DNA of 64,000 nucleotides from Dactylonectria macrodidyma (lineage: Eukaryota; Ascomycota; Sordariomycetes; Hypocreales; Nectriaceae): the NCBI GenBank assembly GCA_020744425.1, contig JAGMUV010000004.1, positions 1,302,001-1,366,000 on the forward strand. The letters are read 5' to 3'. Below are positions 16,901 to 60,160 of the stretch, in pieces. Both the position numbers and the translations under genes were made by a program. Position 1 is the stretch's first letter. Each line of letters opens with the position of its first letter. The notes beneath the pieces were generated by a model, which saw only the letters and a list, made by a program, of their open reading frames with translations, did no database searches and was not told where the DNA came from.

Positions 16901-19900
16901 ATAAAAAGGCATTAAGATCTACTTAATTAATGACTTACTATCTAATGGTTTAATATTAAAGGGCGATTCTTATTAGAAATTGAAGAAGATAGTAAAGATT
17001 GCTTTTTAGATAGAAAAGGGAGGTAAGTATTCTAACTTCTTTATACTTAAATTCTCTACCTTAGAGAAAGGAAGTTAGTTAATAAAAGAATAGCTAGTAG
17101 AAATAGTTAATTAAATAAATAAAACCTTATTTAAAGAAGAATAAGATATATTTATTACTATCTTATATAATAAGGAGGCTATACTAGCTTAGGACTTTAA
17201 AGATTATAAAAGAGTTAACTTAGTAATTATTCTATTATAAATTATTAAGGTTATCCTTTATAAGGCTTAGTAAGTAAATAGTATTCTTATCCTTTTAGGA
17301 CTATACTAAAAGGTTATTAACTTACTTTATTAAAGACTTAGAAGAAGTATCCTAAAGGAAGGCTATAGCTTTTATAAGAACCCCTTTATACTTATAATAA
17401 AAAAGGATAGTAAAATCTAATTAATTAATTTAGCTATTAGGATAAACCGTATTACTATTTATAATAGCTTAAGCCCTCTTAGTACTAAGGAGTTCTTAGT
17501 AGATATAGTAATGTATTAGATATTATCTTTCTTAGACTTCTTCTTAGGATATAACTAAGTCAGTCTAGCTAAAGAAAGTAAGGATTTAATTACTTTTATA
17601 ATACTATTAGGCTTACTAAGAATATGCATATTATTATAAGGAGTGACTAACTTAATAGCCTAATTTATAAAAATTATTACTTATATTTTATTTAACTTAA
17701 TACTAGATATTTATATAGCTTTCTTTAATAATATAATAGTAAAAGGACTTATTATAACCTATAATAATAAAGAAGCTAGCCTAAGAGTTAGACAGTATAT
17801 TAAAGAGCATTTAATTAACCTAGATCAGACTCTATTAAATATTAAACTAGCTAAATATACTATTTCTATACTAAAATTACAGTTTTATAAACAAATTACT
17901 CTAATAGTTAAGTATTTTTATAGTACTTATAGGAGATTGCTAAAAGAGGCTAAAGTTATTAAGATTACTAAGTAGACTTATTATAACTTTAATATAGAAG
18001 TTAGAGCATTCTTAAGAGTTACTAGCTACTATAGGATATAGGTTACTAGATATATAACTATTATAAAGCTATTAATAAGTTTATTAAAGAAAGATGCTAA
18101 ATTTATCTAAAGTGATTTATAAGCTAAGGCTATATAAATGCTAAAGGATAAATTATTATTAGTACTTATCTTAGTTACTCTAAACCTATCTCCTAGTTAT
18201 AGGAAGGTTATTCTTATAGCTAATGCTAGTTTATTAAGTTAGGGTTATATTCTTATATAAGTAGTGAATAGTAAATGCTATTTAGTAAGATTCGAATCTA
18301 GTATATAAACTTAGAGTGAATATAACTATAATATTATAAAAAGAGAATACTAAAGCATTCTACTTTTAATTAAATAGTTATATATATATTTATATAGAAT
18401 TCACTTTATATTAGAAATAGATGCTTAAGTATTAGTCTATTAGCTTAATAAGAAAGGGATAGATATCTTAAGAGCGCTAGTTAATAGATAGATCAGTTAT
18501 TTACTACTCTTTAACTTTATAGTCTGATATATACTTAGGATTAAGAATATAGTAACTAATAGGCTATTTAAAAAACTACTAGGCCTATTTAATTAACTAA
18601 ACTAAGAAGCTAAAGAGGATATTAAAGCCTTTATTAATTAATAATTAAATACTATTATAATTAACCTAGTAAAAACCTAATAAGAATCTTAACTACTATT
18701 AGAATTACTAAAAGATAAATATACTAATAAGTTAAGGGTCTTAAAGAGGTTCCTATAGACTTAGTAATACTCTTAAGATATATTAAATAAAGCATATATA
18801 TATCTTTACTTTAAAGTAAAAAGGTTCTTCTTTTATAAAGGAACCTTATAGTTATAAGTAATTTACTTAAATTATAATCCTAAGCTGGTTATTAAGAGTA
18901 AAGATATATAGAAGCATTTAATTAAATCATATTATAAAGACTATAAGCATTAAGGCTAAAAGAAAACTATAAGACTCTTAAAAGAAAGATATTACTAGCT
19001 AAACCTCTATAAGGATATAAATATAGCCATCCTAGCCTATAAGACTTATTAAATCTATAATATATAATAGGCTAAGGAACTTATAATACTTACTAGACCT
19101 AGCTATTTTATAATAAAGATTTATATAAACACTTAATATCTTAAGGAGTCTTAAAGTAAGAAGTACTTATTAGAAGCTAGATATAACCTTATTAAATAGA
19201 TTAAAGCTAAAGCTCTAAAGTTACTTAAAGCCTCTTATATACGCTCATTCTTAAGAAAGATCTTTTCTTACTATAGGATACTTATTATAGTAGTTATTAA
19301 TAATAGGTCAGAATGTTAATAAGGCCTTATAGATATCCTAAAAGACCTGAGTATATAGACTATATATATCTTTATATATAATGCTAAAGTAAATAGATTA
19401 ATTAAATTAGACTATAGTAGTATTATATTTTATATTAAGAAGATAGATACTCTAAAGACTAGGAATTAGTTAGTTAACCTTTTAGCTATTCTATTTATAG
19501 ATAGAGTATTACTAAGAGCATCCTATAGCTATATTCTTATATACTTACTATATAAGTATAAACTAGGTCTCTTATTAGAAGGGGATGCGCTTATATAGAG
19601 AATAATCCTTTAGAATAATATAAAAATATCTAATTAAATATTTATAATTAGAATCTGCGCTCTTTCTTTCTTAAATAAAGATATAAAGATTATAAGGCAA
19701 AGGGTTACTAAGTTTAGAAAGAGAAAAGCAATAAGAATAGATTAAGGATTTCTTTATATTTTAAAAAAAACCCTACTAAAGGTTAGTAACTTAGTATTAT
19801 AATATAATAACCCTAGAAAAACTGACCTTTTTATAGTAGCTAAGTTTAAGCCTAGATAGCAGGGGCTATATAGGATTAAAATAGCCTTAGATAAAGGCTA

Positions 19901-20200
19901 GTACTATTTAGAAACCCTAAATAGACTACTACTTAGCATTACTTACTATAGTAAATACCTTAAAGTATTTTAATAAGATAAAGATAGTTAGTAGAGCTTA
20001 GATAATAATTCTTTAGCTCCCTCTTACTAAGAGTGCCTTTTTTATAGTAATCCTTAAGCTAGATTAATTAATTAAATAAAATAGGATAAAGAAATAAGCC
20101 TAAGAGAGAAGGATAGATTGAAAATAAGTTTTAAGGTTCCTTTTTAACTAACTATTATTAGTACTAAAGAGGAAAGAAAACTGAAGATCTAACTCCTATA
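16900..20200 (+). pseudogene. RIP-destroyed Ty3/gypsy pol relic (RT, RNase H, integrase)
   Basis: Read through its many TAA/TAG codons, one plus-strand frame follows the gypsy pol order. Around 17,440-17,770 an RT core is seen, with the catalytic aspartates of the xxDD motif now asparagines (AFFNNIIVKG, about 17,715-17,750), as G-to-A mutation would produce. RNase H-like sequence follows near 18,200-18,600, ending in the segment that precedes the tether region. The integrase zinc-binding region and core lie at about 18,950-19,500. Most stops replace CAA, CAG or TGG codons. It cannot be functional. A related but oppositely oriented relic lies at 50.2-52.4 kb. Confidence 0.7.
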
Positions 20201-22400
20201 TAGAGATTAAGCCTAAAGAGACTAGTTTAAATCTCTCTAAGTAAGATAAGGGAGTAGGAAATAATAATAAGTCTAAAGTTTATACTTATTATTATTTTAA
20301 AGAGGGGTATAGTATAAGAAGTAAGAAAAGATAAATAATCACTACTTACTAATATTCTAACTAATTAAAGGCCTTATAAATTTATAATTTAAAAATTAGA
20401 CTTAAGACTAAATTAGTATTAGGATTAATATATAAAATATATAAACTAGTTAATTAAATAACTCTAGAGCTATAAAATAAAAGAAAAGCTATAAAAGCTA
20501 TATTTACTTAGAATAGTAAGTTAGATATAGTACTATAAAAGGATAAGTATACTTTATATAAGAGAAAAGTTAATTATAAAAAAGCTAATTAGTAGGATCC
20601 TATTTATCTTATATTACTATAGTAAGTTAAGTATTAAAGTTATTAAATGAAGGAGTCTAGTATATAGGAGATAAGCTGAATCAGGTTAATTAACTAATCT
20701 AACTCTAAACTACTACTAATAGATTAAAAACTAAAGACTTAAGCTTTAAAAAAGCCTATAGACTCATTTTAAATAGTATGCTTTTTAGCATTTTAAATAG
20801 TTTTATTATAAAGGGATTTATTCTCCTAAGCTAAAGGGAATTTATTAAAAATATAAGAATAGCTTATATAATTAAAAATACTTATTATTTAATTATTAAG
20901 ATTAATAGAATACTTTATATTAGATAAGAAGTTAAGAAAAGTACTAAAACTAGGTTTAGAAGCTAAGTACTTATTAAGAAAAGACTACTTATATTAAGAA
21001 TTAGTATTCTAAATATAATTTATATATTTCCTATTTATAAACTCTAAGATAAATTAATAAGTATAAAATAGCTATATATAATACTCTTTAATTATAAAGT
21101 AATTTAAAGTACTTAATTAAATATAGTATTTATATAATAATAGATTTTAGTATTTAAAGAAAGTAATAATTAAAGCCTTCTTATACTTAGATTAGTAAAG
21201 CAGTTCTTTAATAAAATACTTATAAAAGTAGCCTAAGTTAGTAAGAATATATACTAACTAAAAAGGCTAATTAGAAATATATTTTATTAAGTATTTTAAG
21301 ACTATATTAGCTATCTTATCCTTATAAATCTAGGCTTAGATATACCTCTTAGTAGAATTAATATTAAATAACTCTTTCTTAAAAGCGAACTTAATAAAGA
21401 GAGAGAGACTACTATAATTAAGAGCTATATATAAGTAAATCTAGATAGTAAAGTACTTCTTAAACTATAGAACTATTAGATTAAATAGTCTTAAGCATAG
21501 GGGAATACTTATTAATATAAAGCGAGTCTCCTTTTACTCCTTTTTAATTAATAAAGTCTTATAGTAACTATTTTAAGTTAAACTAGTATAAAGAGAGAAT
21601 TTATCGCTTTCTAACTAACTAGCTATATAAATATATATATTAAAAAGGGCTCTTTAGTAAACCTTAGTAATATTAGAAAGGTAGAAGTTAGAAGAAGCTA
21701 TTATTAAATGAATTAATTAAGTAATATTAATAAAGTATAAAAAGGAAGAAAAAAGAAGAAAAGGAAAGAGAGAAAAAAGAAGTGTTTTAAAGTAAAGGAA
21801 CTATATGTACTAAGATTAATGCGTATAGAGTGAATTATAATTAGTAAGGAAAATAAATAACCTCTTATTACTTAAGACTTTAAAAGCCATTTCTCTCTCT
21901 CTTTTTCTTCTCTTTAGTATAACTTAACCTTTCTTCTTATAATAATTACTATTCTTAGAACTCATTGCCCTTTAATTATAACTATTTAACATATTTACTT
22001 AATTAAATGCTGCTCTTTAACTAGCCTGAATAATACTCTTAGAAACCCCCTTTCTTCTTAGCTAAGCTTTTACTTCTAACCTCTCTCTACCTCCTACTAT
22101 AAGAACCTTATTACTATAACCATCTGCTCCTTAATCTCTTTACTTCTCTAAACCAGTTACCTGCCTTTATTTCTGCCTGCCTTACTAATGCTCGCAAGCC
22201 TGCACTACTTAGTCTTAAAAATCCTATCCTTAAAACCTTATTACTAATTATAATAAAAACCCCCCTCTTTAACTATAACCCTCTATTTCCTTTATCTTAC
22301 TATTATTATAATATTAAGTTATTAAATGACTTTATAATTCATTTAATTAAATAATTTACTACTAAATGACCTCCTTTTAGCTTAGCCTTCCTTTAAATAA
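20200..22400. other. RIP-degraded repeat DNA, unassigned
   Basis: AT-rich and stop-filled. Some plus-strand stretches near 20.2-21.7 kb look like decayed coding sequence, but I recognise no motif. No gene is supported. Confidence 0.35.
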
Positions 22401-24400
22401 ATCCTCTACTCTTCCTCTTATTAAGCGCCTTTACTATAAGCAGCCCTATTAATAATAAATAAACCTACTTCCTACTAAAGGCTTATTTTACTTAAAGTAA
22501 GGAAATTACTATTATTAACTATAAAAAGGGATTATTTTACTATACTTTAGAAGCATCCTTAGTTAAATAGCTAAAGGAGATTATAATTAATTAACTAGCC
22601 TTATTATACCTTTATATAAAATAGCCTAAGTTTAGTAAAGAAAGGATAATTAATATATATAGTGACTATAAAGACTTTAAGTTTATAAAAGCTATATTAA
22701 TATAACCTTTATATAAGGATAATATAATGCTTTTTAGAGTGTTTTAGAAGGAGTATACTCTTTGCCTTTAAGACTTTTATAAGAAGCTATAAGATAATGC
22801 TTAAGCTAGTAAAGAAAGACTTAGGGACTTTCTAATTATAATTATATATAGATTAGAGGATATTATTATAGTATTTCTAACTCTACTTTTAGATAGTGTT
22901 CTTATAGTTATAATAAATCTATTTAAAAAGATAATAGATTTAGTTAATTAAATATATAAGTGCTTACTCCCTAAGGACCTTATTACTAAATGTATATTAA
23001 ACTCTTACTATAATTCTAGTTATTATATTATTAAGTAAGATATTTTTAATTAGTATTTTATAGTTAGCCTAATTAATTATAAAGACTTTTACTAAGTATT
23101 ATATATCTTTAACTAATACTTTAGCTAAGTCTTTTACTATAATACTCTTAGAGGCTATACTTTACTTAACTACTAGAAAGCATTTACTTATACTTAATGC
23201 CTTATTTTAACTAAAATAGGTTATCCTTATAACTTTAATATTTTCTACACTCTTATAGCTAATTAACTAAGTGGTTTTAAATGCGAATACTTAGCTATTT
23301 ACCTTATGTTCTTAAACTTATAAAGTATGATTAGAACTATAAGACTTAGGGTCTATTTATATGCGAATCTATCTTTAGTAACTCTAGGCATTAGGAAGTG
23401 ACTAGTAGAAGGAGAATATGCCTTCTTATAAAGAGATTAGCTTATTAGTCTATTTAATTAATTACTTAAACTGTTTAAAGTCACTCTCTTTATTAGCTAA
23501 GAGTGGGTTAAGACCTAGTTCTTAATGGCTATTTATAATAAACTTAGGTTTAGAAAAGTCACTATTACTAAATATAAGTATAATAAGGCAGTATCTTCTA
23601 TACTTTTCTCTTATTACTCTATTTACAGTTTACTACTTAAAGGACTTACTATTATCCTTACTAAACTAAGTAATTACTAACTAATTAAGTAAACTGACTT
23701 TCTTACTATTAGGAACTAGACTAAGGACTCTTAATTAATAATTATACTTACTAATATTATAACATTTAGAGAGTCTATTACCCTTCTTAAACTAAGCTAA
23801 ATTATTAAGACCCCTAACCTGCTTGAATCCTATATAACCACTTTACACACTCTTTATACTAATTAGGAACTTATTAACTAATTAGTATAAGACCTAGAGC
23901 TAGTAATAACCTTAAAATCCTAATGCTTTAGAACTCTTCTAATTCTACTATTCGCTTTTAAATCTAGTTTAAGTATTATAGATTTATTTAATTAAATAGT
24001 TCTGCTTTATATAACCCTTACTCTAGTAACTAGTAATAATTATAGTAATTTTAATAATTCGAATAAAGGAGCTATTAATAAGAAGTAAAAAAAGATTAAT
24101 AAGGATATTATTATAAAATAAGCATTACTAAAGAAAAAGGCTAATAATTAAATCATTTATACTAATAATTATACTAAGGCTATTCTTAATTAAGTACTTA
24201 TAAATAGAATTAAAAGAGTCTATATTATTAAACTAATAGCTAAAGAAGCTATAAAAACTATAAAAAAGAATAATATTAATACTCCTACTTATATTATAAC
24301 TATATATACTATTAGGTCTCTTTATTTACTCCTAGCCCCTTACTAATAGATATATATAATTAATTAAATAGAAAGCTTTATTACCTTTATTCTAGATAGT
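22400..24400 (+). pseudogene. RIP-degraded coding relic of unknown family
   Basis: One plus-strand register stays largely readable for nearly 2 kb, interrupted mainly by TAA and TAG of the kind RIP makes from Gln and Trp codons. Fragments such as LITKCILNSYYNS, KCEYLAIYLM and FRESITLLKLSQ are seen, with a strongly hydrophobic and lysine-poor feel in places. I do not recognise the family. It could be a gag or another transposon protein, or a captured host gene. Confidence 0.35.
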
Positions 24401-24501
24401 CTGATTTCTTTATCTTAATAGGACGCTATTATAAATACCTTAAGGTTAAGATTAGCTCCTCTTCCTCCTACTAGGCCCTCTTAGGCTAATTGCATTACTA
24501 T

Positions 24502-24903
24502 TGTGTTGGGCAGGGGGACAAGAGGGACACCACCACCCGAAGTGACGGATGCCGTAGGGTAGGCGGGATGCGAAGCAGAGCGGGGATGGACAAGACTCGC
24601 AAAACAAAACAGACAAAAAGAAGGCCTGAGCTGCAATCGAGCAGCCGGCTAAGAAATGAATCAGATATTCCAGTTGATCAAATAAATCTCATCATAATGA
24701 CATCAAAAACAATTCAATAATTCAAAAATAAAGGTGGGCAAGAACATGATTGATTGCTATCTGTGTCCGAGTCGTCTCTGCCTTTTATCTCAGACCAACT
24801 CCCGTTATCCTTATCGATAGCTTTATCAAGACCGGCACTCAAATTGGTCGGCCAATTAAAATGTCCAGGCCATTCTAGCTAGTGGGCCCTCAGCCCCGAC
24901 ACA
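24502..24903 (-). repeat. Solo LTR, family A, copy 2 (little RIP)
   Basis: 402 bp, in inverted orientation to copies 1 and 3. Ends are TGTGTTGGGC and GCCCCGACACA, forming a short inverted repeat. It is flanked on both sides by ACTAT, with the final A of the right copy overlapping the element end, so it looks like a complete insertion with a 4-5 bp target duplication and no internal region. It retains CpG and CpA sites that are mutated in the other copies, so it is the youngest and closest to the ancestral sequence. Confidence 0.75.
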
Positions 24904-25190
24904 CTATATGCAAATTAACTTATACTTTGCTTCTAAGACCTACTTAAGTGTAACGGTCGTGTTCCCAGGCTAACCTGTACGTGGTATAGGGTAGCTCGGA
25001 AAGGGTTCCTAAGGGATAGACCAGGGTCTATGTTAGCAGAACGGTTAGGTCACACTTACTGAGCGGTAGTCGTAGTGTTACGTTAGGTAATAGTCAATGT
25101 ACGATGATGCGTAGCAGTCAGAGTAGATTGAGGTAACCAAGTTGTATTGATAGCTGAGGAGCTGGTGTCCTAGTGACAGCCAGTTCCTCG

Positions 25191-25200
25191 GGTTTATATA
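25191..25200 (-). promoter_or_regulatory. TATA box of the Gypsy-1 LTR
   Basis: TATATAAACC on the minus strand, downstream of the GATC array and about 40 nt before the sequence predicted to start the RNA. The working promoter copy is the same site in the right LTR at 32,868-32,877. Confidence 0.7.
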
Positions 25201-25218
25201 CTATGTAGTATGAGGTTC

Positions 25219-25315
25219 GATCACCTTAGTTACAGGGGTGATCGCAGTGATCACAGAAGTGATCACGGTGATCACGGGAGTGATCGCGGTGATCGCTCCA
25301 CAGTTCGCTGTGATC
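25219..25315. promoter_or_regulatory. Regular GATC-core array in U3 of Gypsy-1
   Basis: Eight GATC cores start at 25,219, 25,240, 25,249, 25,261, 25,270, 25,282, 25,291 and 25,312, giving the spacing 21-9-12-9-12-9-21. Most sit in GTGATCAC or GTGATCGC contexts, several next to CGG triplets. The same array is at 32,896-32,992. Position upstream of the TATA box suggests activator or repressor sites. Confidence 0.75.
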
Positions 25316-25345
25316 GCTCGTAATTGGTGAGAAATTTGTGGGGGC

Positions 25346-25357
25346 CACGTGACGTCA
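25346..25357. promoter_or_regulatory. Overlapping E-box and CRE palindromes in the LTR
   Basis: CACGTG (25,346-25,351) overlaps TGACGTCA (25,350-25,357), consensus sites for bHLH and bZIP/CREB-type factors. The right LTR has the same pair at 33,023-33,034. Binding is not shown. Confidence 0.5.
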
Positions 25358-25384
25358 GGCGTCTACGTTGCACGGGTCGTGACA

Positions 25385-25405
25385 CGATGTCTCCCCTCCG
25401 TTGGT
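25385..25405 (-). other. Gypsy-1 polypurine tract
   Basis: On the minus strand, GGAGGGGAGACATCG leads into the 3' LTR. This is the expected place and composition for the plus-strand primer of reverse transcription, offset a few bases from the LTR edge. Confidence 0.6.
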
Positions 25406-25498
25406 CCTTGTCCCCAAGGCCTACAAGTCGGCCGTCCCAAGTTTCTCCCTGGTTTGTCCAACCTTCCCCTGTAATTATTTTTCCGTAATGCTGACAGC

Positions 25499-26103
25499 AT
25501 GTCGAAGGTGAAATCGCAATCCGCCGCGCGTCGTCATCGTCTCTACGAACTTATTGAAGAAATGGGCTCCGAGGTTATCGAGTGCTCAAATTGCGCTCAA
25601 CGGAAGTTGAAGTGCAAAATGCTCGAGGGCATTTCCCGCTGTTCTGAGTGCGTTCGTCGCGGACGTTCTTGTGACGGCTCGGGGGAGTCGATCTCCGTAT
25701 GTGAGTGTCTGTTCCTGCTTGACAAATTTTGTGTTTTTGTGTTGACCGGGCAGCTTCCCGTCTGACGGCTGAAAAGCGCCGTTTAGAGTCCGAGGAGGAA
25801 CAAGCGGAAGAGGAGTTGATAGAATTGCAACAGCAAATGAATGAGCGTTTGTCTCGTCTGATGCGGCTTCGTCGTCAACGAAAACAGCTTCAAGAGAGAG
25901 GCGTGGAGATGGTGCGTCGGGGGCTTCGTTCCCTGGACGAGTTGGATGAGGCGGAGCGCCAAGAGGCTGATGCGGTCATCGAGGTTCAGGCCCATGGTGG
26001 GGTGGATGCGATCGATTGGTCCACTATGTTTGATTTTGGTGCTGCTTCTTCATCTTCCGGCGTTGCGCATGGAACGTCTTCAGTAGACGTTGCGCGTGGA
26101 TGA
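25499..26103 (+). CDS. Antisense Zn2Cys6 cluster protein carried by Gypsy-1
   Basis: Runs opposite to gag-pol in the 3' end of the element. Two exons, 25499-25700 and 25754-26103, give 183 residues. The 53-nt intron (GTGAGT...CAG) joins the Zn cluster to the helical half in frame; a GTATGT four bases upstream would lead to an early stop. Cysteines 29, 32, 39, 48, 51 and 58 have the spacing C-X2-C-X6-C-X8-C-X2-C-X6-C, a full fungal binuclear cluster with basic residues inside (QRKLK). A charged coiled coil with leucine heptads follows (about 70-120). The tail holds IDWSTMFDFG, an aromatic/acidic patch like short activation domains. Its last 80 bases overlap the end of pol tail to tail. I infer a DNA-binding regulator; targets are unknown. 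The usual middle homology region of host Zn2Cys6 factors is absent. Confidence 0.75.
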
Positions 26104-29100
26104 GGTTTTCCGGTGGTTGCCACGATGTTTCGCTTTCAGGGTAGTCTTTCCACTTTATGAGGTACATTGTTTTACCGTCGATTCTCTTCATGTCGCGGAT
26201 TTCTTCGACGTGGTACTCTTCTGGTGATTCGACTTCCGGTTCGTGGTTGTAGCCGTTGTTGACCATGATGGTTCCTTTCGTAGGTTCCAGTAGTGATACG
26301 TGGAAAACGGGGTGTACCTTGACCTTTGGTGGTAGGTCTAACCTGTAGTTGTTTTTTGAGATTTTCTCCAGAACCTTGTAGGGGCCGATGAATTTGTAGT
26401 CGAGTTTTTTGCTTGGTCTGTCCGTTGTGAGATTTTTTGTTGCTAACAGGACCATGTCCCCTTCCGAGAAGGATGGTCCCTCCAGCCTTTTCTGGTCGTA
26501 ATATTTTTTCATTTGGTTTCGTACAAATTCGAGTTCGGTTTTCATTTCTTCGTGGAGATTCTTCAACTTGTCTGACGTCAGGATTGCTTTCGGGTTGATG
26601 ATTCCGTCGCGTGGCGTGTGGTACGCGTCAGGTGTGAATCCGAAATTGGCGTAGGATGGCGTGAGCTTGGTGCTTTCATGTACCGAAGTATTGTAACTTA
26701 GCTGTGCCGTTGGTAACTTTTCTACCCAATCGTTTTGTTCGTAGTTGATGTAGCATCGAAGATACTGCTCGAGTATCTGATTTGTGCGTTCCGTCTGTCC
26801 ATCGACCTGTGGTCGGAATGCCGTTGTAAGGCGGTGATTCAATCCCATCTGGGCCATCAAGGCTTGCCAGAATTTGGATGCAAACGGGGGTCCTCTGTCG
26901 CTTAGGATCTCCGTTGGTAAGCCGTGTACGCTGACGATGTTCCGTAGGAACAGGTAGGCGAATTGTTCGGCATCCGTTGATTCGTGATAAGGTATAAAAT
27001 AGGAAAATTTCGTGAGTCTGTCCACGATGACAAGAATGCTGTCATAGAAGGTACCATTCGCTGGGTCTTCTGACAGGGGTAACTTCGTAATGAAATCCAT
27101 AGTGATGGAGTCCCATGGTCGCTCAGCGACTGGTAGGGGTTGTAGCTCTCCATATGGTTTGTGGCGTCGTGCCTTTGTTTTATCGCATGGTAAGCATTCC
27201 TTGATGACTTCCGTGACGATTTTCTTCATTCTAGGAAAAGTGTATGTCGTTTTGACTCGTTTAAGGGTTTTGTTGATTCCTTGGTGTCCGTGTAGGAGAT
27301 GTACATGCATATCTCGTACTAGCGGTTTCTGTAATTCCGGGGGAACTCGTAGCCTCCGTGGTTCGAGTTGTGATTCGGGAATTGGGCAGGGTGCTCCTGT
27401 TACTCTGTCCATCTCGTATGTCTGATTGTATTCCCGTATTCGTTCGTGAAGTGTTTCTTGGGACACTGTTGCTGCGACTTGGACTGTTTTGTCGAGTTCG
27501 TCGACCCATTTGAGTTTCTTTCGTACCTTGTTGGGTTCGCAGTTTCGGTGATCGCCTATCTCCCAGCACTCCTTTGCGTGTTGGTCGATGAGATCGTGGG
27601 GGCATCGATTGCATTGTCCCATGTGACTGATGCATGCTGATGTGAGGTCGCCGTGGAAATACTGGCTGAGTTTCTTGGCTAGGGTCCAAGGGTTCCCGTG
27701 GTGGTTGCCCTGATGGAAGTAAGCGATTGCTTGGGATCCTTGTGATCCTGTCAAGACTGCTTTTCCTTCCTGCCACAGTAGTTCTCTCGGGGCTGGTTGA
27801 ATGTCGTGTATCCATTGTTCGAAGCTTTGTTCGGGCGTCTGTAGTCGTTCCAGCAAGTCCTCCGGTAGCCTGGACTCGCTTACTGCCGCAATGTACTTCT
27901 GCTTCAGATGTCCTTCGGGGGTGTAGGTCAATACCTGTTCGTTGACCTTGGGTATGTCTATTTCGAAGTCGGGTCGTCTACTTATCGCGTCGGCTCGTCC
28001 GTTTTCTGAGCCTTTCTTGTGGATGATGACGTAGTCAAATTCTGATAGGTACTCCGCGTAGCGAAGTTGCCTTCCACTGAGCTCTTGGGTGGTAGCGAAG
28101 TGTGAAATGTTCTTGTGGTCCGTGTACACGGTGACCTGGTGTTCGCTTCCTAAGAGGTAGTGTCGGAATTCTTTGAAAGAATTGACTATCGCCAAGAATT
28201 CCTTGTCGTAGATGGGGTAGTTGAGTTCAGCTCCCTTCAGTGTGCATGAGTAGAACGCGATCGGGTGTAGGTTTCCTTCGTCGTCCCGTTGTCCAATCTG
28301 GGCTCCCAGGGCGAAGTTGGAAGCGTCGGTTTCCAATTCGATCGGTCGTTTTGGGTCAAAGGTTGCCAAAACGGGTTCACTGAGGATGGCTTGTTTCAAG
28401 TCGTTGAAGGCTTTCTGGGCCTTTGGGTTCCATCTGAATTCTACTTCTTTCTTCGTGAGTTCTGTCAAGGGTTTCGCGATTTTGCTGAATCCGCGAATGA
28501 ACCTTCGGTAGTAATTGGCGAATCCTAGGAAGCTCTGTACTTCCTTGACACTCTTGTCAGGTCTCGGCCAATCCTTGACAGCTTCGATTTTCTTTTTGTC
28601 CATTCGGATCTCGTTTGGTCGGATGGTATGTCCGAGGAAGTCCACTTCCTGTGCGTGGAACTTACTCTTCTCTGGTTCAACGAGTAGTTTTGCGTCTTGC
28701 AGCTTTTGCAACACCTTGTGGACGTGTTCCGTGTGCTCTTCTTCCGTGTCGGAGAAGATCAGGATGTCGTCTAGATAGCATACGACGAAAATGTCGAGGT
28801 GTTCTCTCAAAACGTTGGTGATCATCCGTTGGAAGGTCGCCGGTGCGTTTGTGAGTCCGAAAGGCATTACCAGGTATTCGAACAATCCAAACTTGGTTCG
28901 AAACGCTGTCTTCCATTCGTCTCCAGGCTTGATGCGGACCAAGTTGTAAGCGCCTTTTAGGTCGAGCGCCGTAAACCACTTCTTACCGTGAAGGCGATCC
29001 CTCAGTTCGGTAATCAGGGGTAACGGTGTTCGGTCTTTGTTCGTGATGGCGTTCAACTGTCGGAAATCCACAACTAGTCGGAGTTTGCCGTTCTTCTTGG

Positions 29101-30214
29101 GAACGAACATGACAGGGTAACCTGCGGAGGATTTTGATATCCTGATGTATCCTTTTCGTAGCATTTCTTCGAGGTATTCCTTTAGCGCTTGAAGCTGAAC
29201 TTCGTTGAGGTTGTAAAGTTTGAAGAACTTGGGTGAAGTTCCGTCTTTCAACACAATGTCGTGGTCCCATTCACTGTGTTCGGGTAGACCTGTTTCCAGT
29301 TCTTCGGCAAACAGTTTCTCATAGATGCGGTAAGCAGGTGGTATGTTTTTCAGCCTGTCGTCTGCTTCCGATTGTTTCTTCATTTCTGCAAGGTCTTTGT
29401 CGAGTTTTGTCAGTTGACTTCGTACAAAGGCGATGGTGCGGCGTGTCTTGCTTCGTCGGGCTTTGCGGTGTTTGTATTTCGTGCCTCGGGGTGGGAAAGT
29501 TTCTGTCGTTTCTTTCGCCGATACTTCGCTGGTGCCGTGGTCAGTCGAAGTTTGAGATCTCGTGTCGTCGTCTGAATCTGATTCCCAAGAGGAGTGATCA
29601 TCGACGTCGTCGAAGTTCACTTGGCCAGTCCTCCAGTTTATCATTGGGTTAACTCGTTTCAACCATGGGTACCCTAGAACCAAAGCGTGGTGCGCAACAG
29701 GTATAACATCGAACGAGATTCCTTCGTTTCGTCCTTCAACGAAAACCTTGAGATGATCAAGCTCTTTGGTTATTCTTCCGCTGTCGTAAGCGAACGGGGA
29801 TCCTTCGAGGTTTTGTACTCTGTACGGATTTGCTTTGTCCTTCCATGGAAGTTTCAATGTATTCACCACTGCGGGGTGGATGTAATTGAATTCTGCGCCG
29901 CTGTCTACCAAGGCGGGCAGCCAGTTTCCCTTGATTCGTACCTGTATTTCTAGGTACCGTTTTGTCGTTTGTGCGCTTTTGGTCGCACATAGAGCTCTTG
30001 TTTCGAGGGGTTCCGCTTCCCCTAGCTCTGTGCCTATCTGTTGCTCTGTTACAGATGGCGTCGGGAGTTTTTTGTATTCTCCGTTGTTCCGTCTCGTGAG
30101 GGTCGAAATGTCGGTCTGCGATTGTGCTCGTGCCACGCATTGACCTTGTCGTATACATGTATCTGGCATTCGGGTCGTTGGCAATCGGTGAATTTGGCAT
30201 CGAGGTGTTGACAC
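26024..30214 (-). CDS. Gypsy-1 Pol: protease, RT, RNase H, integrase, chromodomain
   Basis: Replication polyprotein of the retrotransposon, open for 1,396 codons from 30,214. It is probably entered by -1 frameshift at 30,067-30,073, so the first 48 or so residues need not be made. Domains in order: aspartic protease with DSG at 104-106; RT with YLDD at 480-483; RNase H starting at ETDASNF; integrase zinc region HGHQGI...CLPC; integrase core with MDFITKL, SDRGPPF and a final E in QTERTNQ; then a GPY-like segment. A chromodomain with YLIKWKDYPESETSWQPPEN occupies roughly residues 1,330-1,385. All catalytic residues are present and there is no internal stop, so it looks active. The chromodomain classes it as a chromovirus that may target heterochromatin. 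Its 3' end overlaps the antisense Zn2Cys6 gene. Confidence 0.95.
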   Translation of the reverse strand: MSTPRCQIHRLPTTRMPDTCIRQGQCVARAQSQTDISTLTRRNNGEYKKLPTPSVTEQQIGTELGEAEPLETRALCATKSAQTTKRYLEIQVRIKGNWLPALVDSGAEFNYIHPAVVNTLKLPWKDKANPYRVQNLEGSPFAYDSGRITKELDHLKVFVEGRNEGISFDVIPVAHHALVLGYPWLKRVNPMINWRTGQVNFDDVDDHSSWESDSDDDTRSQTSTDHGTSEVSAKETTETFPPRGTKYKHRKARRSKTRRTIAFVRSQLTKLDKDLAEMKKQSEADDRLKNIPPAYRIYEKLFAEELETGLPEHSEWDHDIVLKDGTSPKFFKLYNLNEVQLQALKEYLEEMLRKGYIRISKSSAGYPVMFVPKKNGKLRLVVDFRQLNAITNKDRTPLPLITELRDRLHGKKWFTALDLKGAYNLVRIKPGDEWKTAFRTKFGLFEYLVMPFGLTNAPATFQRMITNVLREHLDIFVVCYLDDILIFSDTEEEHTEHVHKVLQKLQDAKLLVEPEKSKFHAQEVDFLGHTIRPNEIRMDKKKIEAVKDWPRPDKSVKEVQSFLGFANYYRRFIRGFSKIAKPLTELTKKEVEFRWNPKAQKAFNDLKQAILSEPVLATFDPKRPIELETDASNFALGAQIGQRDDEGNLHPIAFYSCTLKGAELNYPIYDKEFLAIVNSFKEFRHYLLGSEHQVTVYTDHKNISHFATTQELSGRQLRYAEYLSEFDYVIIHKKGSENGRADAISRRPDFEIDIPKVNEQVLTYTPEGHLKQKYIAAVSESRLPEDLLERLQTPEQSFEQWIHDIQPAPRELLWQEGKAVLTGSQGSQAIAYFHQGNHHGNPWTLAKKLSQYFHGDLTSACISHMGQCNRCPHDLIDQHAKECWEIGDHRNCEPNKVRKKLKWVDELDKTVQVAATVSQETLHERIREYNQTYEMDRVTGAPCPIPESQLEPRRLRVPPELQKPLVRDMHVHLLHGHQGINKTLKRVKTTYTFPRMKKIVTEVIKECLPCDKTKARRHKPYGELQPLPVAERPWDSITMDFITKLPLSEDPANGTFYDSILVIVDRLTKFSYFIPYHESTDAEQFAYLFLRNIVSVHGLPTEILSDRGPPFASKFWQALMAQMGLNHRLTTAFRPQVDGQTERTNQILEQYLRCYINYEQNDWVEKLPTAQLSYNTSVHESTKLTPSYANFGFTPDAYHTPRDGIINPKAILTSDKLKNLHEEMKTELEFVRNQMKKYYDQKRLEGPSFSEGDMVLLATKNLTTDRPSKKLDYKFIGPYKVLEKISKNNYRLDLPPKVKVHPVFHVSLLEPTKGTIMVNNGYNHEPEVESPEEYHVEEIRDMKRIDGKTMYLIKWKDYPESETSWQPPENLIHAQRLLKTFHAQRRKMKKQHQNQT

Positions 30215-32565
30215 TTCGTAGGGTAATCCTCATCGTACTCCATGAGTTGTGCGATCCCTAGGTTTTCGTACCATTTCCTTACTCGGTAGTCTTCCATATC
30301 TTCTACCTCGTAGGGTTTCATCACTGGTTGACCATTTACTCGTACCGGGAAACAGTCTTGCTTGAGCTTCTCCGCGAGGTGCGTGGTGCATTGTTGGTAG
30401 ATGCACGAAGCCCATGAGATTTCCTTGTGTTTCCGGTGTTCCCAGTGTACTCGAGGGTCGTCTCCCCTGAGTCGTCGTTCGGTTGGGTTTCGTGGATTTC
30501 GTCCGTCGTTCCGATGTAGAGCTCGGATGTATATGTCCGCTTCTTCCGTAGGGTCCTGTGTTTCCCTGGCGAACTGTTCGATTTGGACGTCTTCCATCAC
30601 GCGTACTAGCGCGTCTTGTTCTTCCGGAGTGATGCTTCGAAGGTCATCATCGGATTCCGGGTATTCGTCTGCTGGTGCGAGGATGTCTTCGTCCTCGATG
30701 TTGTACCCGGCTTCCCTTGCCTGGTGTACGTCTCGTCCTGCGCTAACTTGTCGTGGAAAGTAGCTGCGTGTTGCACCGCTGTCCATCATGGCAGGTCGCA
30801 TTTGTGGCCTGTTCGTGTCGGTCCATTCGTGATCGGGTTGTCGGTCTGGGATCTCGAAGTCGTCGAAATCTTCCATTTGCGTTGGATTCTCCCTGAGTTG
30901 TCGGACCATAGCGATGGTATGACTTTCGTTGTTAGGCCGGGGCGCGATAGGTGGGTATCCTGTGGCTTGTGTGCCTGGGATGGCTGTCCATTGCTTGGCA
31001 GGTTTCTTCCCATTCTTTTGATCCCTTTTCTCCTTATGCTCGTCCTTATGCCTGTGGTAGCTGTCTCGCTTTATTCGCAGGCGGTGCTCTCGTCTGTCAG
31101 GATTCTTTTCCTCCTGTTCTCGTATTTGCTTCCATCCGGTCAGGTTTGAGTTTGTGCCTGGCCTGATCGCTCCTGGTTCCAGAAGTTCCTTTGTTCTGGG
31201 GTTGTCGGTGTATTTCAGGTCTTCCATCCAGTCCCACGGTGGGGCTGCGCCGTTGAAGGTTCCGTCGAAGCCGCTTCGGGTCATGTTGATGGATCGGACT
31301 GGGAGTTCGTCGTCCTTTTGCATCTTGACTGAATTGATGTTGCGGGTAGGCGTGGTGATGGGCTTGAATGGTTTCTTTTCCCTCCTTGGTTTTTTGCAGT
31401 CGCGTGAAAGGTGTCCTGGTTCGTCGCAGTTGTAGCATTTGAACGTCTTCTTTCCCTGCTGGTGACGTTGCTGCACCGCTCCGAGTTCCATTGGTCCTGC
31501 TGCAGTACCGTAAGAAGTGTTGGGGGTTCGTTGTTTCCCCTGGTTGGCATAGTTCTTCTTTCTCCAGCCGCTACTGCTGGCGTTGCCGTTTCGTTTTTCC
31601 ATTCGTCGTTCGAAGAGTCGATTATCGATGGTGACGCACAGTTTGGCGTAAGCGTTGAAGGTGGTGGGTAGTGTCAGGATCTTGGACACTTCGTCTTTGA
31701 CCTCATCCTTCATTCCTCTGTAGAACTCATCGATTGTTGTTTCTTCGTCCCAACTGAGCTTGGCCAAGTGGTATCGAAATTCCGTGAGATATTCCGACAT
31801 TGCTCGCTTTTGATCCAGTTTCCGGATCGCTTTGAGAGCGTCGTGTTTCTCGTCCCATTCGCCGTAAGTGTCGATGAGTTTTTCTTCGTACAGTCTGAAG
31901 TTCCCAAAGAGCTCCTTGGTTTCGACACGGCGACTATCGTAGGGGTTCTCGACGAAGTCTCTCAAGATTGGTTCGAGTCCGCGTAGGGCCTTTCCTTCGA
32001 GCAGGCTCATTGCATGTCTGACCTTCAGTTCTTCGTTCGCGAACATGGTAGGGTAGTACATGAAGTATGATTTGAGCTGCGTGAGGTGCTCGCGAAGGTC
32101 CTTGGGGGTACCGTCGAACTTAGTTGGCATTGGCGGTTTGAGGGTTTCTCCAGCGTCACGAGGTCGTGCCTGCTGGGCTGGTGCGTTAAACCCGGTGAAT
32201 TGTTCCGCCTGGCGCTGCTGTTCGTTCCTAGCAGCGGTTTGAGCTGTAGACAACTCCACGATTCGTGCTTCAAGAGCAGCGATGGTGTTTGCGACGTTCG
32301 GGTCTCGAACAGGGTTCTCCTGTTGAGTTCGAAGAGCCGCGAACTGCGCTTCGTAGTGCTCGTGCGCTTCGTGGTTCAGCTTAGACATGTTGATCATTTC
32401 GTTGCTGAGGCGTTGGTTCTCAGCACGAAGTGCGATGATCTCTTCATCCTCGTCTCCGGACGAGTCCATGTCTCGGTCTCCGTCTGGGTCCTGGGCCCTA
32501 CGCTGAGTAGCGGGTCCCTTGCCCTTGGAGGAGCCAGAGCTGGTAGTGGGAGTTGCGGGTGCCAT
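30049..32565 (-). CDS. Gypsy-1 Gag with CCHC knuckle and long C-terminal extension
   Basis: Structural capsid protein, 838 residues from the first ATG at 32,565 (MAPATPTTSSG), which lies about 60 nt inside the LTR edge. The frame is open further upstream but has no ATG. A low-complexity start is followed by a coiled coil, then a retrotransposon gag domain at about residues 160-320. The zinc knuckle CYNCDEPGHLSRDC is at about 377-390. Some 450 more residues follow, longer than typical gypsy Gag. They include an isolated protease-like motif MDSGATRSYF (D595) and two cysteine-rich patches near the end. The frame stops at 30,049-30,051, 16 nt beyond the frameshift heptamer, so most translation should give Gag alone and a minority Gag-Pol. 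Confidence 0.9.
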   Translation of the reverse strand: MAPATPTTSSGSSKGKGPATQRRAQDPDGDRDMDSSGDEDEEIIALRAENQRLSNEMINMSKLNHEAHEHYEAQFAALRTQQENPVRDPNVANTIAALEARIVELSTAQTAARNEQQRQAEQFTGFNAPAQQARPRDAGETLKPPMPTKFDGTPKDLREHLTQLKSYFMYYPTMFANEELKVRHAMSLLEGKALRGLEPILRDFVENPYDSRRVETKELFGNFRLYEEKLIDTYGEWDEKHDALKAIRKLDQKRAMSEYLTEFRYHLAKLSWDEETTIDEFYRGMKDEVKDEVSKILTLPTTFNAYAKLCVTIDNRLFERRMEKRNGNASSSGWRKKNYANQGKQRTPNTSYGTAAGPMELGAVQQRHQQGKKTFKCYNCDEPGHLSRDCKKPRREKKPFKPITTPTRNINSVKMQKDDELPVRSINMTRSGFDGTFNGAAPPWDWMEDLKYTDNPRTKELLEPGAIRPGTNSNLTGWKQIREQEEKNPDRREHRLRIKRDSYHRHKDEHKEKRDQKNGKKPAKQWTAIPGTQATGYPPIAPRPNNESHTIAMVRQLRENPTQMEDFDDFEIPDRQPDHEWTDTNRPQMRPAMMDSGATRSYFPRQVSAGRDVHQAREAGYNIEDEDILAPADEYPESDDDLRSITPEEQDALVRVMEDVQIEQFARETQDPTEEADIYIRALHRNDGRNPRNPTERRLRGDDPRVHWEHRKHKEISWASCIYQQCTTHLAEKLKQDCFPVRVNGQPVMKPYEVEDMEDYRVRKWYENLGIAQLMEYDEDYPTKCQHLDAKFTDCQRPECQIHVYDKVNAWHEHNRRPTFRPSRDGTTENTKNSRRHL
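30067..30073 (-). promoter_or_regulatory. -1 ribosomal frameshift site A AAA AAC
   Basis: In the Gag frame the codons read ACA AAA AAC, which places the canonical slippery heptamer A_AAA_AAC in the right register. A -1 slip reads AAA AAA CTC in the Pol frame. The Gag stop follows within 20 nt. Frames on both sides match exactly. Confidence 0.8.
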
Positions 32566-32610
32566 AACAGCTTGTCGGTTATTGCTCAGCGTATAAGGTA
32601 ACCGTCTGAA

Positions 32611-32625
32611 CAAGAGCTATCAACG
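32611..32625 (-). promoter_or_regulatory. Gypsy-1 primer-binding site, self-priming type
   Basis: The DNA just inside the 5' LTR does not begin with the TGG needed for a tRNA 3' end. Instead TTGATAGCT (plus-strand positions 32,615-32,623, read on minus) is complementary to AGCTATCAA in the LTR at 32,824-32,832, about 40 nt after the TATA box. This is the arrangement of Tf1-like self-priming, where the RNA 5' end folds back on the primer site. Confidence 0.6.
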
Positions 32626-33061
32626 TGTAACGGTCGTGTTCCCAGGCTAACCTGTACGTGGTATAGGGTAGCTCGGAAAGGGTTCCTAAGGGATAGACCA
32701 GGGTCTATGTTAGCAGAACGGTTAGGTCACACTTACTGAGCGGTAGTCGTAGTGTTACGTTAGGTAATAGTCAATGTACGATGATGCGTAGCAGTCAGAG
32801 TAGATTGAGGTAACCAAGTTGTATTGATAGCTGAGGAGCTGGTGTCCTAGTGACAGCCAGTTCCTCGGGTTTATATACTATGTAGTATGAGGTTCGATCA
32901 CCTTAGTTACAGGGGTGATCGCAGTGATCACAGAAGTGATCACGGTGATCACGGGAGTGATCGCGGTGATCGCTCCACAGTTCGCTGTGATCGCTCGTAA
33001 TTGGTGAGAAATTTGTGGGGGCCACGTGACGTCAGGCGTCTACGTTGCACGGGTCGTGACA
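32626..33061 (-). repeat. Gypsy-1 5' LTR (right copy)
   Basis: Identical to the left LTR. In element orientation it holds, in order, the E-box/CRE pair, the GATC array (32,896-32,992), the TATA box (32,868-32,877) and the predicted RNA start (32,824-32,832). It should drive gag-pol. Confidence 0.95.
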
Positions 33062-33472
33062 TTAAGGATTACTATTACTATCTGTTTTTATGCTTACTAG
33101 ACTTACTAATATATTTTAATTATCTAATTTACTAAGGAATACTACTTAATTAAATACTTCTTAGTCTCTTTATATACTTTATAGTTAATTTTACTAAAGA
33201 GTTCTTATTATAATTACTTTTATGATTTTGCTTACTATTCTTAATATAACCTTAGTACTTAAGTTCCTTTTAGACCCTTTTTTATAAATACTATAATTTT
33301 AAAAGAATAAATATAAGCTAGATTCTAATTAATTAACTATACTTAGATATTAGACTTATATATATTATCTTTCTTTTCTTATTATTTCCTTTATTTATTA
33401 AGGCTCTTCTTCTCTTTATTATTTATAGTCTTTAGGCTTATGGGAATAAAGCGCTAATTATATAAGGAGGAC
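33062..33472. other. RIP-mutated internal remnant of an old LTR element
   Basis: AT-rich, no open frame. It ends in TATAAGGAGGAC directly before LTR family A copy 3, which looks like a polypurine tract. That makes it the 3' internal end of an old plus-strand element. Confidence 0.5.
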
Positions 33473-33873
33473 TGTATTAAGGCTGAGGGCTTACTAACTA
33501 GAATGGCTTAGACATTTTAATTAGCTGACTAATTTAAGTACTAGTCTTAATAAAGCTATTAATAAGGATAATAAGAGTTAGTCTAAAATAAAAAGTAGAA
33601 ATAATTCGGATATAGATAGTAATTAATAATGTTCTTACTTACCTTTATTTTTAAGTTATTAAATGGTTTTTGATATTATTATAATGAGATTTATTTGATT
33701 AATTAGAATATCTGATTCATTTCTTAGCTAGCTACTTAATTGCAGCTCTGGCCTTCTTTTTGTCTGTTTTATTTTATAAGTCTTATCCATCCTCGCTCTA
33801 CTACGCATCCTGCCTACCCTATAGCATCTGTTACTTTAGGTAGTGGTGTCCTTCTTGTCTCCCTGCTTAATAC
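33473..33873 (+). repeat. RIP-mutated LTR, family A, copy 3 (likely 3' LTR), split by Gypsy-2
   Basis: Same family and orientation as the copy at 12,527. Its last bases lie at 40,169-40,174, beyond Gypsy-2, because Gypsy-2 inserted at AATAC near its very end. After the rejoined end (AATACA) comes CTAT, the same four bases that precede copy 1, so copies 1 and 3 may be the LTR pair of one old nested element. Confidence 0.65.
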
Positions 33874-34066
33874 TGTCACGGGCCAGATGAGATCAACTCA
33901 AGAGGTAATGCCACTGTATTGCGAGAATACTACGATGAAGAGGAAAGAGAAAGCGGGCAGGCGCGTGGACGCGTAGACGCGTTGATAGTCCCTGTGGCCT
34001 GCCCCGTGCGTCCTAGTTACGTATCGACCCCACCCTGGGTCCAGCACTCCAGACGCTCCCGTCACA
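33874..34066 (-). repeat. Gypsy-2 3' LTR (left copy)
   Basis: 193 bp, TGTCACGGG...CGTCACA on the plus strand, identical to 39,976-40,168. No TATA box is seen; a long pyrimidine run precedes the predicted RNA start. Confidence 0.95.
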
Positions 34067-34080
34067 TCACCCCCCTCTTC
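34067..34080 (-). other. Gypsy-2 polypurine tract
   Basis: GAAGAGGGGGGTGA on the minus strand abuts the 3' LTR, as expected for the second-strand primer. Confidence 0.8.
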
Positions 34081-34122
34081 AAGGCGCTCAAAACGGCCGC
34101 GTGAGCGCAAGTTATCAAATCC

Positions 34123-37100
34123 TCACGATCGCCAGATGACAAAGACTCTTCGTTTCCGTCGTGCTTTCTTGGGCCCCCGGCCCAGTTTGATCGGTTGATT
34201 ATCGTCAGGGTGCTCCGGTACGTCCGTATCCGCAGCAGCCGCGTCGACCCAGGCCTGTAATCGCTTCGGTGGCCCAGGTGCCTCCGAATATTCCTCATGG
34301 AACTCCTTCAGTCGCATCGGTGCGTTCTTGAAGTTTTCGGCAGGGTACCATTCATCGTCGGGGTCGTGTCCGACCCAGTCTACCCTATACTGGAGCTGTT
34401 TGTCGCGTTTATTGTACCGCGACTCCTTGACCTTGTGAACCTCGTACTCTTTGGCGCCGTTGATGACTTCAGGTGGTGGTGGGTCCTCATCCTGCCCTGG
34501 CATAGGATTGTCGGGATAACGCCGTAACCGATCCGCGTGTAGAGTTGGGTTTATGTGCCACGAGGAGGGTAAGTCCAGGCGGTATGAATGCCCGACTTGT
34601 TCCACAATAGTCCATGGCCCTCTCTTCCTCCAGTCTAACGCCTGGCTGGGTCTTGTACTCGTAAGTCCGCGCATGTCGACCCAGACTTTGTCCCCAACCG
34701 TAAAATCCGGTTCCCGGCGCTTCTTGTTAGCTTGGCGGATCTGCCGTTCCTGCGCCTGGTGGAGATTCTGCCTAGCAACTTTGATGGAGTCCGCAATCCG
34801 CTTGGCATACTGCTGGGCATCCTCTCTCGACAAACGTTCAGCTTTTGTTTTGCAGCCCTCAAGGTCGGTTCTCTTATCCCAGTCGAGTTGGGATCGGGGC
34901 AAGTGGCCGAGTAACAGTCTCACCGGTTCCATACCCAGTGACTCGTGGTAGAGATTCATTTGCGCATAGTCCATCGACGGTAGTAGTTCACTCCAGTCGT
35001 CTTGGTAATGGTTGATAAACGGTCGCAGTCGGTGGTTCAAGTACTGGTTGTAGATCTCAGTGTTCCCGTCTGTCTGGGGGTGCTCTGCTGTGCTCAGTTT
35101 CTGCTTCACCCCGATAAGCTTGCATAGCTCATCCATGAAGGCGGCGATAAACTGTGGTCCTCGGTCTGACGTCACCGTCTCCGGCACCCCAAAAACACGG
35201 TAGACGTGGTGGTAGTACATATACGCGACGTCCTTCGCTGTCACCGTCCGGTAGCAAGGTATAGAAAAAGCGATCTTGCTGAGCCGATCAATAACTACCC
35301 ACACGCAGTCGTATCCGTTCTTGTCCTTAGGCATGTAATGGAAGTCTGTTGTCACATGCTGCCATATCCGGTGTGGGACTTCCAATGGGTGTAGCAATCC
35401 GGGGGTCTTATCTCTATTGGCGTGAGCCCTTCCACACGGCTTACAATTTGCCCGGAACCGATCGACGTCGGCCGATAAGCCCGGCCACCAGAACCTCTCG
35501 GCAACCAATCTGACGGTTTTGTTGCGTCCCGGGTGGGCTACATTGAGCTTGCAGTGGTTCTCCTTGATGACCAGCGTTCGGAGAACACCTTCGTCTGGAA
35601 CAAAAATGCGCTGGTTCCGGCAAACCACACCTTCGTCCATCGTCCAACCATCGGCCTTCTTTTCTGCGTTCTCTCGGTAGGGCTGTGATTGGGGAGAGGC
35701 CTTATTAGCCCGGAGGACGGCGTCAAGCAGCTGCCATCCCTCCGGCGCCCGGATAGCCTCCCTTCCGGAGCTAACCGAGGACTCGACAGCTTCGGCCCCG
35801 ATCAATGCCACCTCTGGTCCTTCCCCGGAATCGGGCTCGGTACAGGGGCCGGCCATGACCTCATAGTCAATAGAACTAATCACCAGGTCCCGACTCAGCA
35901 GTACCCTGTTCCACGCGGCTTCTCGTCGCGCCTTCTGCGTAGCCAGTTCGGACGACTTCCGAGACAGAGCATCCGCTACAACGTTCTCTCGCCCCGGACG
36001 GTAGGTGATCTTGAAGTCATAAGGCGCCAAGTCGTCCGCCCACCGCGCTTGCCTGCCATTAAGGCGTTGTTTCGTCGAGAAGTACTCGAGGGCTTTGTGG
36101 TCAGTAATAACTAGGAATTGCCGTTGGAGCCCCAAGAGCTCGGCGTTCCATTCCTTCAAGGCCAGCACCACTGCGAGCATCTCCTGGTCGTGAATCGGGT
36201 AACGCATCTCCGCGTCGTTCATCGTCTTGGAGAAGAAAGCTACGGGGTGCCAGTCCCCGTCTTCGCTCTTCTGGGTTAGTACTGCAGCCACCACACCTCC
36301 TGACGCGTCGGTCTCGACGATCGTATCACGGAGAGGGTCGTACCAGGCCCGGCACGGGGCCGACGAAATCGCCAACTTCATAGCCTTCATCGCGGTCGTC
36401 TCCTCTTCAGTCCACCTCCATGGGATCCCCTTCTTCGTCAACAGTGTAAGCGGTCGCGCTATCCGACTGTAAAACTCGACGAACTTTCGGTAGAAGTTGC
36501 AAAACCCAAGGAAGGCCTGTACTCCCCGTACGTTTGTTGGTTCTTCCCAGTCTATAATGGCCTTCATCTTCTTCGGGTCCATCCGGATCCCGTTTGTCGT
36601 AATTATAAAGCCCAGGAACTCCGTCTCTGTAACATAGAATTCCGACTTGTCGATGTCTGCCTGCAACCCTGCTGCGACCAGGCGTCCCAAGACTGCATTG
36701 ACGTGCGCTTCGTGGTCCTTGACGTTTTCTGAGTAAATGAGAATGTCGTCGATGTATGCCGTGCAGCAGACGTCTAGGAGATCCATCAGGACGTGGTTGA
36801 TGTAAGCTTGGAAGTGCGAAGGGCCGTTGGTCAGACCAAACGGTACCACCTTATACTTGTAGGTACCATACCGAGTCTTGAAGGCTGTGAGATCCTCGGA
36901 ATCTGGGGACATCCGCATCCGATAGAAGGCCTGTCGGATGTCGAGTTTCGTAAATACTTTTGCCTTTGCCAGCCTCGACTGGGTTTCTTCTATCAGGGGT
37001 GGTGCACAATGTTCCTTCGCCGTCAACTCATTGAGCTTCCTGTAGTCCACACAGAAACGCCATCCGCCGTTCTTCTTTTTTGCAAACAGGACTGGTGATG

Positions 37101-38286: not shown

Positions 38287-38312
38287 TTCAGGTCCTAGAG
38301 AGGAGACTTCCC

Positions 38313-41136: not shown

Positions 41137-41145
41137 GCCCCTCTT
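41137..41145 (-). other. Copia polypurine tract
   Basis: AAGAGGGGC on the minus strand directly adjoins the 3' LTR. Confidence 0.75.
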
Positions 41146-60157: not shown

Positions 60158-60160
60158 TTA

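Follow-up and report, generated by a model that had tools for sequence, protein, structure and literature searches.

HTLV-1 carries at its 3′ LTR a spliced antisense gene, HBZ, which encodes a bZIP transcription regulator. Among LTR retrotransposons, antisense additional ORFs located between pol and the 3′ LTR are on record from plants and from Boty (PMC7264820, in excerpt). The excerpts of that paper also mention the antisense promoter of HTLV and treat what antisense additional ORFs do, in plants and fungi alike, as an open question. In Boty-like Ty3 retrotransposons of Botrytis and Sclerotinia, the antisense additional gene is brtn (Zhao et al. 2011, as cited in portions of PMC7264820, PMC8365987, PMC4227169 and PMC5987419). 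The portions in question present brtn as an additional ORF of BcGypsy1 (PMC8365987), a Boty-like gag-pol accompanied by brtn (PMC4227169), and a Monilinia transcript resembling truncated Pol and BRTN (PMC5987419). A figure legend in PMC2864245, part of which we used, assigns to fungal elements an additional ORF of unknown function. No zinc cluster is attributed to such an ORF in any of these excerpts.

A spliced gene opposite to gag-pol

The gene considered here lies in a stretch of 64,000 nt (the window, meaning the whole stretch of DNA that was analyzed). The preliminary description had proposed a spliced gene of 183 residues, with perfect six-cysteine spacing, on the strand opposite to a gypsy element, and this was borne out by the ATG, the 53-nt intron and the stop codon (Table 1). 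Other GT/AG pairs likewise keep the frame open; the 53-nt choice has a GTGAGT donor. The intact frame and intron had also been said to sit in an element with identical LTRs, and indeed the LTRs are identical over 436 bp and TTAAG is found on both sides. The position at the 3′ end requires one amendment: the gene is antisense to gag-pol and adjoins the 3′ LTR, which is the placement of the aORF-3R genes, but its last 80 nt also overlap the end of pol.

The host is a Ty3/Gypsy chromovirus, with gag, the RT–RNase H–integrase order, a chromodomain, LTRs and a 5-bp target duplication all present. The gag and pol frames are both open, and the offset between them leaves a remainder of 2, which we read as pol being in the −1 frame relative to gag; the protease matches in pol were below the Pfam cut-offs. 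In Tf1-type elements, reverse transcription is self-primed. Here, TTGATAGCT, next to the inner edge of the 5′ LTR, has its complement in AGCTATCAA, found at LTR position 230, 45 bases beyond the start of the TATA motif, and the pairing of the two is a candidate for self-priming of reverse transcription. A search for the LTR within the 64,000-nt window returned two copies only, namely those of this element.

Also on the minus strand of the window are a second Ty3/Gypsy element (33870–40168; LTRs at 33870–34066 and 39972–40168, 99.5% alike over 197 bp), with a pol-type ORF at 34123–38346, and a Copia element (40590–46244) with identical 547-bp LTRs and an open frame of 1418 residues. A 400-bp repeat occurs in three copies (12527–12927, 24510–24895 and 33473–33873; 80–88% alike, one inverted), two of which lie close to the host element, on either side of it. 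A 669-residue frame at 52560–54569 has a MULE transposase domain, and a 299-residue frame at 1766–2665 gives a glycosyl hydrolase family 16 match. In 2-kb steps, the G+C content is 0.16–0.26 at 12000–24000, 48000–52000 and 56000–64000, and 0.42–0.56 at 24000–40000. The low G+C tracts are what repeat-induced point mutation would be expected to leave; the host element is not affected.

Table 1. Features of the host element and of the antisense accessory gene (window coordinates)
Feature	Position	Strand	Basis
Ty3/Gypsy element with chromodomain	24949–33061	−	LTRs, TTAAG duplication, gag and pol frames
TTAAG target-site duplication, low-coordinate copy	24944–24948		sequence
TTAAG target-site duplication, high-coordinate copy	33062–33066		sequence
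3′ LTR, 436 bp, TGTCAC...GTTACA on element strand	24949–25384	−	100% identical to 32626–33061
5′ LTR, 436 bp	32626–33061	−	100% identical to 24949–25384
gag frame, stop-to-stop, capsid-like plus CCHC knuckle	30049–32616	−	Pfam Retrotrans_gag, zf-CCHC
pol frame, stop-to-stop: protease-like, RT, RNase H, integrase, chromodomain	26024–30229	−	Pfam
Chromodomain, pol end	26066–26215	−	PF00385, residues 1339–1388, 45 bits
Candidate self-priming site TTGATAGCT, just inside 5′ LTR	32615–32623	−	complementary to AGCTATCAA
Seven GTGATCRC sites, U3 of 3′ LTR, upstream of accessory gene	25238–25317		motif count
Seven GTGATCRC sites, U3 of 5′ LTR, upstream of gag-pol TATA	32915–32994		motif count
TATATAA, candidate gag-pol TATA box, 5′ LTR	32871–32877	−	LTR position 185, element strand
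Accessory gene, whole, 183 aa, opposite to gag-pol	25499–26103	+	ORF and splice
Exon 1, ATG at 25499	25499–25700	+	family profile matches frame, E 4e-25 (profile includes window sequence)
Intron, 53 nt, phase 1	25701–25753	+	GTGAGT...GGGCAG; acceptor place common to nine relatives with insert
Exon 2: coiled coil, acidic/aromatic tail, stop 26101–26103	25754–26103	+	family profile match, E 2.5e-25 (profile includes window sequence)
Six-cysteine cluster, residues C29–C58	25583–25672	+	C-x2-C-x6-C-x8-C-x2-C-x6-C
DWSTMFDF motif, acidic tail	26014–26037	+	W156 and D155 conservation
Tail-to-tail overlap, pol (−) and accessory gene (+), 80 nt	26024–26103		frames; also inferred in three relatives

A protein family with a Zn2Cys6-like cluster

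A protein search with the single sequence gave 35 matches at E ≤ 0.01, and a chance ORF is ruled out by these homologues, whose E values go down to 3e-61. The window protein together with 18 of these homologues served to build a family profile, which found 175 protein clusters at E ≤ 0.01 among 7995 candidates scored; the best 120 of the 175 matches all had E ≤ 4e-31, and 98 were new over the single-sequence search. The matches that carry an organism name come from Verticillium, Apiospora, Corynascus, Staphylotrichum, Parathielavia, Fusarium, Thyridium, Thermothelomyces, Canariomyces, Pyricularia, Xylariaceae, Pseudogymnoascus, Stromatinia, Lachnellula and, among the weakest matches, Thermoascus, all of them presumably ascomycetes, mainly Sordariomycetes and Leotiomycetes. 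When the DNA of relatives was sought by tblastn (with the accessory protein and once with pol) in viral and prokaryotic contig records, nothing was found at E ≤ 1e-3, a negative of little weight given the make-up of those collections. Run across the window, the second Ty3/Gypsy element included, the family profile found no accessory-gene member beyond 25499–26103.

The main alignment comprised 86 of the 134 family sequences, hand-chosen, with the window protein included and incomplete sequences omitted. Cysteines 32, 39, 48, 51 and 58 are invariant in all 86 and cysteine 29 in 85 of them; the nearly invariant columns fall within the region of the cluster and coiled coil. The family layout consists of the cluster, a linker, a coiled coil ending in RRGL.(S/T)LDEL and an acidic tail with DW or FW. 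In an alignment of 12 sequences, W156 is found without exception and D155 almost always, a pattern that the wider set does not share.

Zn2Cys6 (Gal4-type) clusters have the spacing range C-x2-C-x6-C-x5-12-C-x2-C-x6-9-C; in their fold a pair of short helices encloses two zinc ions, and the proteins bind DNA. The window protein fits this six-cysteine spacing, and the strict pattern was found in 118 of 133 fetched relatives. However, the PF00172 profile scored 18.7 bits on the window protein (E = 0.0019), missing the curated cut-off of 21, a score that is a calling rule and not a definition of Zn2Cys6 proteins. We therefore name the cluster Zn2Cys6-like and do not assign the protein as a PF00172 member. 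Within the family, 25 of the 86 aligned members matched PF00172 at E ≤ 0.01. The zinc-cluster-like designation is based on cysteine spacing and predicted topology. A Foldseek search against the PDB gave a single, meaningless match (thymidylate synthase, E = 8.6), and hhalign against a hand-typed Gal4 N-terminus gave a probability of 12%, that is, no support. In a profile search of the PDB, the Beclin-1 coiled coil ranked best (E = 0.2), which we take as a composition match of the helix, and PUT3 came behind it (E = 0.51). The minimal Gal4-type regulator that had been suggested before is in line with the spacing, the coiled coil, the acidic/aromatic tail and the lack of any Pfam match to a middle homology region; the cluster itself stays below the PF00172 cut-off.

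Nine relatives, predicted without splicing, show an insert of 18–20 residues at the site of the window's intron. All nine can accommodate a GT donor in phase 1 together with a YAG acceptor, and all nine can have the acceptor at the identical residue, for which the background is 0.18. With a loose tolerance this splice-compatibility test is weak (background 0.40), only the exact acceptor place is telling, and the anchors were hand-set. In P0002, by our reading, the window's exon 1 and intron borders appear to be read in another frame. Some relatives lack the insert (17 in one alignment, for example) and appear intronless at this site; therefore, the intron is not universal. It presumably survives retrotransposition because it is antisense to the genomic RNA and so would be unspliced there.

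Antisense placement in related elements

Relatives of pol were searched for with its last 152 residues, and the best 120 of the 167 matches were used. Three accessory/pol pairs agreed in both longest-contig size and source: P0002/P0134 (7734), P0015/P0140 (10391) and P0103/P0155 (4632). In a pairing control with 600 shifted offsets the mean was 0.26 pairs, and one offset reached 3.

A tail-to-tail overlap requires that one DNA encode both C-termini on opposite strands, and a dynamic-programming test was applied to this requirement. All three pairs showed antisense codon compatibility without violation, over overlaps of 80 nt (52 codons), 80 nt (52) and 158 nt (104), respectively, whereas six mismatched pairings still violated 15–24% of codons in their best fits. 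When 134 accessory proteins were compared all-against-all with 121 pol proteins (overlaps of 20–299 nt, each tested over 24 codons or more), compatibility was confined to six combinations: the three pairs, the window's own two proteins, and the two cross-combinations of the window with P0002/P0134. One set of shuffled tails yielded none. Given the matching contigs and the perfect antisense compatibility, we conclude that these three relatives lie antisense at the pol end, and the tail-to-tail arrangement, judged in this way from the sequences, is conserved in them.

Relative to the window, pol identity is 91, 62 and about 48% for P0002/P0134, P0015/P0140 and P0103/P0155, and accessory identity for P0002, P0015 and P0103 is 97, 65 and 44%, over 116, 88 and 105 aligned residues. 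P0002/P0134 is accordingly a close copy of the window element and the other two pairs are distinct. The predictions for P0002 and P0015 cover exon 2 alone, so that the cluster falls outside them; P0103 carries it. Over the aligned parts the accessory gene diverges at about the pace of pol, and conservation like that of other element proteins, by which aORF-3R genes are also recognized, was found for the three relatives from partial accessory sequences. Both the expectation that relatives would be placed antisense at the 3′ ends of such gypsy elements (by pairing and codon compatibility, for three) and the claim that the gene is kept by the element (by the three relatives, the pol-like divergence and the common acceptor residue) are supported by these data.

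The longest contig was 6–7 kb for 17 of 130 accessory proteins, against one in each neighboring 1-kb bin, a peak that would be expected if multi-copy elements assemble as units and that lends the placement further, if indirect, support. For 72 of the 130, the contigs were below 2 kb, too short to judge context.

Candidate function and comparison with known systems

Strand-wise matches to GTGATCRC number 23 in the window versus 0.85 expected, and 20 of them fall within the two LTRs. The seven sites in each LTR span 80 bp; three of them are palindromes, part of the array repeats every 21 nt, and three CGG triplets lie between the sites. The 5′ LTR copy of the array is 38–117 bp upstream of TATATAA, and the 3′ LTR copy is 182–261 bp upstream of the ATG at 25499, which makes U3 a candidate shared control region.

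Near the array, U3 also contains CACGTGACGTCA (25346–25357), which we take to hold E-box-like and CRE-like motifs.

The gene is a conserved antisense accessory gene of an ascomycete chromodomain Ty3/Gypsy lineage. Its product is probably a DNA-binding regulator, and we lean, with slightly better than even confidence, toward its being a conserved factor that regulates transcription of the element encoding it. Such a product would be small and nuclear and would dimerize through the coiled coil; the Zn2Cys6-like cluster would bind DNA and the acidic/aromatic tail would act as the effector part. Its likeliest target would be the element's own U3 with the seven GTGATCRC sites, and we infer that the protein may bind this array. 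One protein could then set the level of gag-pol mRNA, from the 5′ LTR, and of its own mRNA, from the 3′ LTR. More tentatively, and at somewhat less than even confidence, we envisage a long-carried, promoter-specific regulator, antisense and with an intron, that reads a dedicated U3 operator array, giving the element its own switch rather than reliance on host factors alone, a fungal counterpart of the HBZ layout reached independently.

Our second choice after a regulator of the element's own LTR, although an unlikely one that we would give about one chance in four, is a conserved brake, in which the protein, or the antisense mRNA via dsRNA/siRNA, limits copy number rather than activating. At least 80 nt at the end of the gag-pol RNA would be open to pairing with the antisense mRNA, and such a dual role has been proposed for antisense additional ORFs (PMC7264820, in excerpt). 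A brake acting through RNA only would not preserve a protein in which five cysteines are invariant and the sixth is kept in 85 of 86 sequences, an argument that leaves a protein repressor unaffected.

Less probable still is a DNA-binding protein serving nuclear entry, chromatin tethering or integration-site choice together with the chromodomain integrase. In three relatives the gene does keep its place beside the chromodomain end of pol, nuclear import could be mediated by basic residues flanking the cluster, and the product of the plant Grande antisense ORF is nuclear according to the part of PMC7264820 that we used. Yet an N-terminal cluster, a coiled coil and an acidic/aromatic tail form the layout of a transcription regulator, and no link to integrase was seen.

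Host-gene transduction is known in LTR elements (PMC7264820, in excerpt), and one annotated relative, P0012, has an odd 5′ end and misses the first cysteines. Nevertheless, a host gene fragment captured by chance, and now decaying or neutral, is very improbable, given the many diverse relatives of equal architecture, the divergence about like that of pol and the antisense overlap shared with elements of only 48–62% pol identity; a dead captured host gene was rejected on conservation. That the frame is open merely through lying antisense to a constrained pol is scarcely credible, because the overlap accounts for the last 80 nt, or the last 26 residues, where the GT..SQGS tail that recurs at the C-terminus is probably a mirror image of the chromodomain end, whereas the cysteine cluster, the coiled coil and the DW motif lie outside pol (25499–26023), the near-invariant columns are in the cluster and coiled coil, and D155 and W156, just upstream of the overlap, are therefore not forced by pol; this explanation is refuted for all but the tail.

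If the preferred reading, a regulator of the element's own transcription, is correct, a lineage of retrotransposons directs its own transcription, and host promoters close to solo LTRs could come under the influence of the protein as well. With a regulator-type domain that can be recognized, a family of conserved relatives and, in the same element, a candidate operator array, the role of an antisense ORF becomes directly testable. In the literature we consulted, part of it in excerpt, we came across no LTR retrotransposon said to contain a Zn2Cys6 gene; antisense ORFs themselves are known, and what looks new is the regulator-type domain in such an ORF along with the evidence for long conservation.

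A member of the accessory family, P0119, comes from Stromatinia cepivora, which we take to belong to Sclerotiniaceae, and this makes it plausible that BRTN is a family member as well. The comparison with Boty brtn is by description only, and the excerpts available credit brtn with neither a zinc cluster nor a regulator domain. The Gal4-type Zn2Cys6 regulators Put3, Leu3 and Pho7 share with the window protein the six-cysteine spacing, the short linker and the coiled coil; unlike them, the window protein has no middle-homology match, is only 183 aa long, has a divergent cluster and is encoded by a retrotransposon. The plant aORF-3R genes (Grande gene23, RIRE2, Retand and PvRetro13) are, like the window gene, antisense, located between pol and the 3′ LTR and conserved like element proteins; as far as the excerpts of PMC7264820 go, they have no clear similarity to database proteins, an SMC domain being noted in PvRetro13, whereas in the window gene a Zn2Cys6-like cluster is recognizable. 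HBZ of HTLV-1 differs in being a bZIP and not a zinc-cluster protein and in belonging to an animal retrovirus, and we claim no sequence relation; in common with the window gene, it is spliced, antisense, located at the 3′ LTR and has a regulator-type product.
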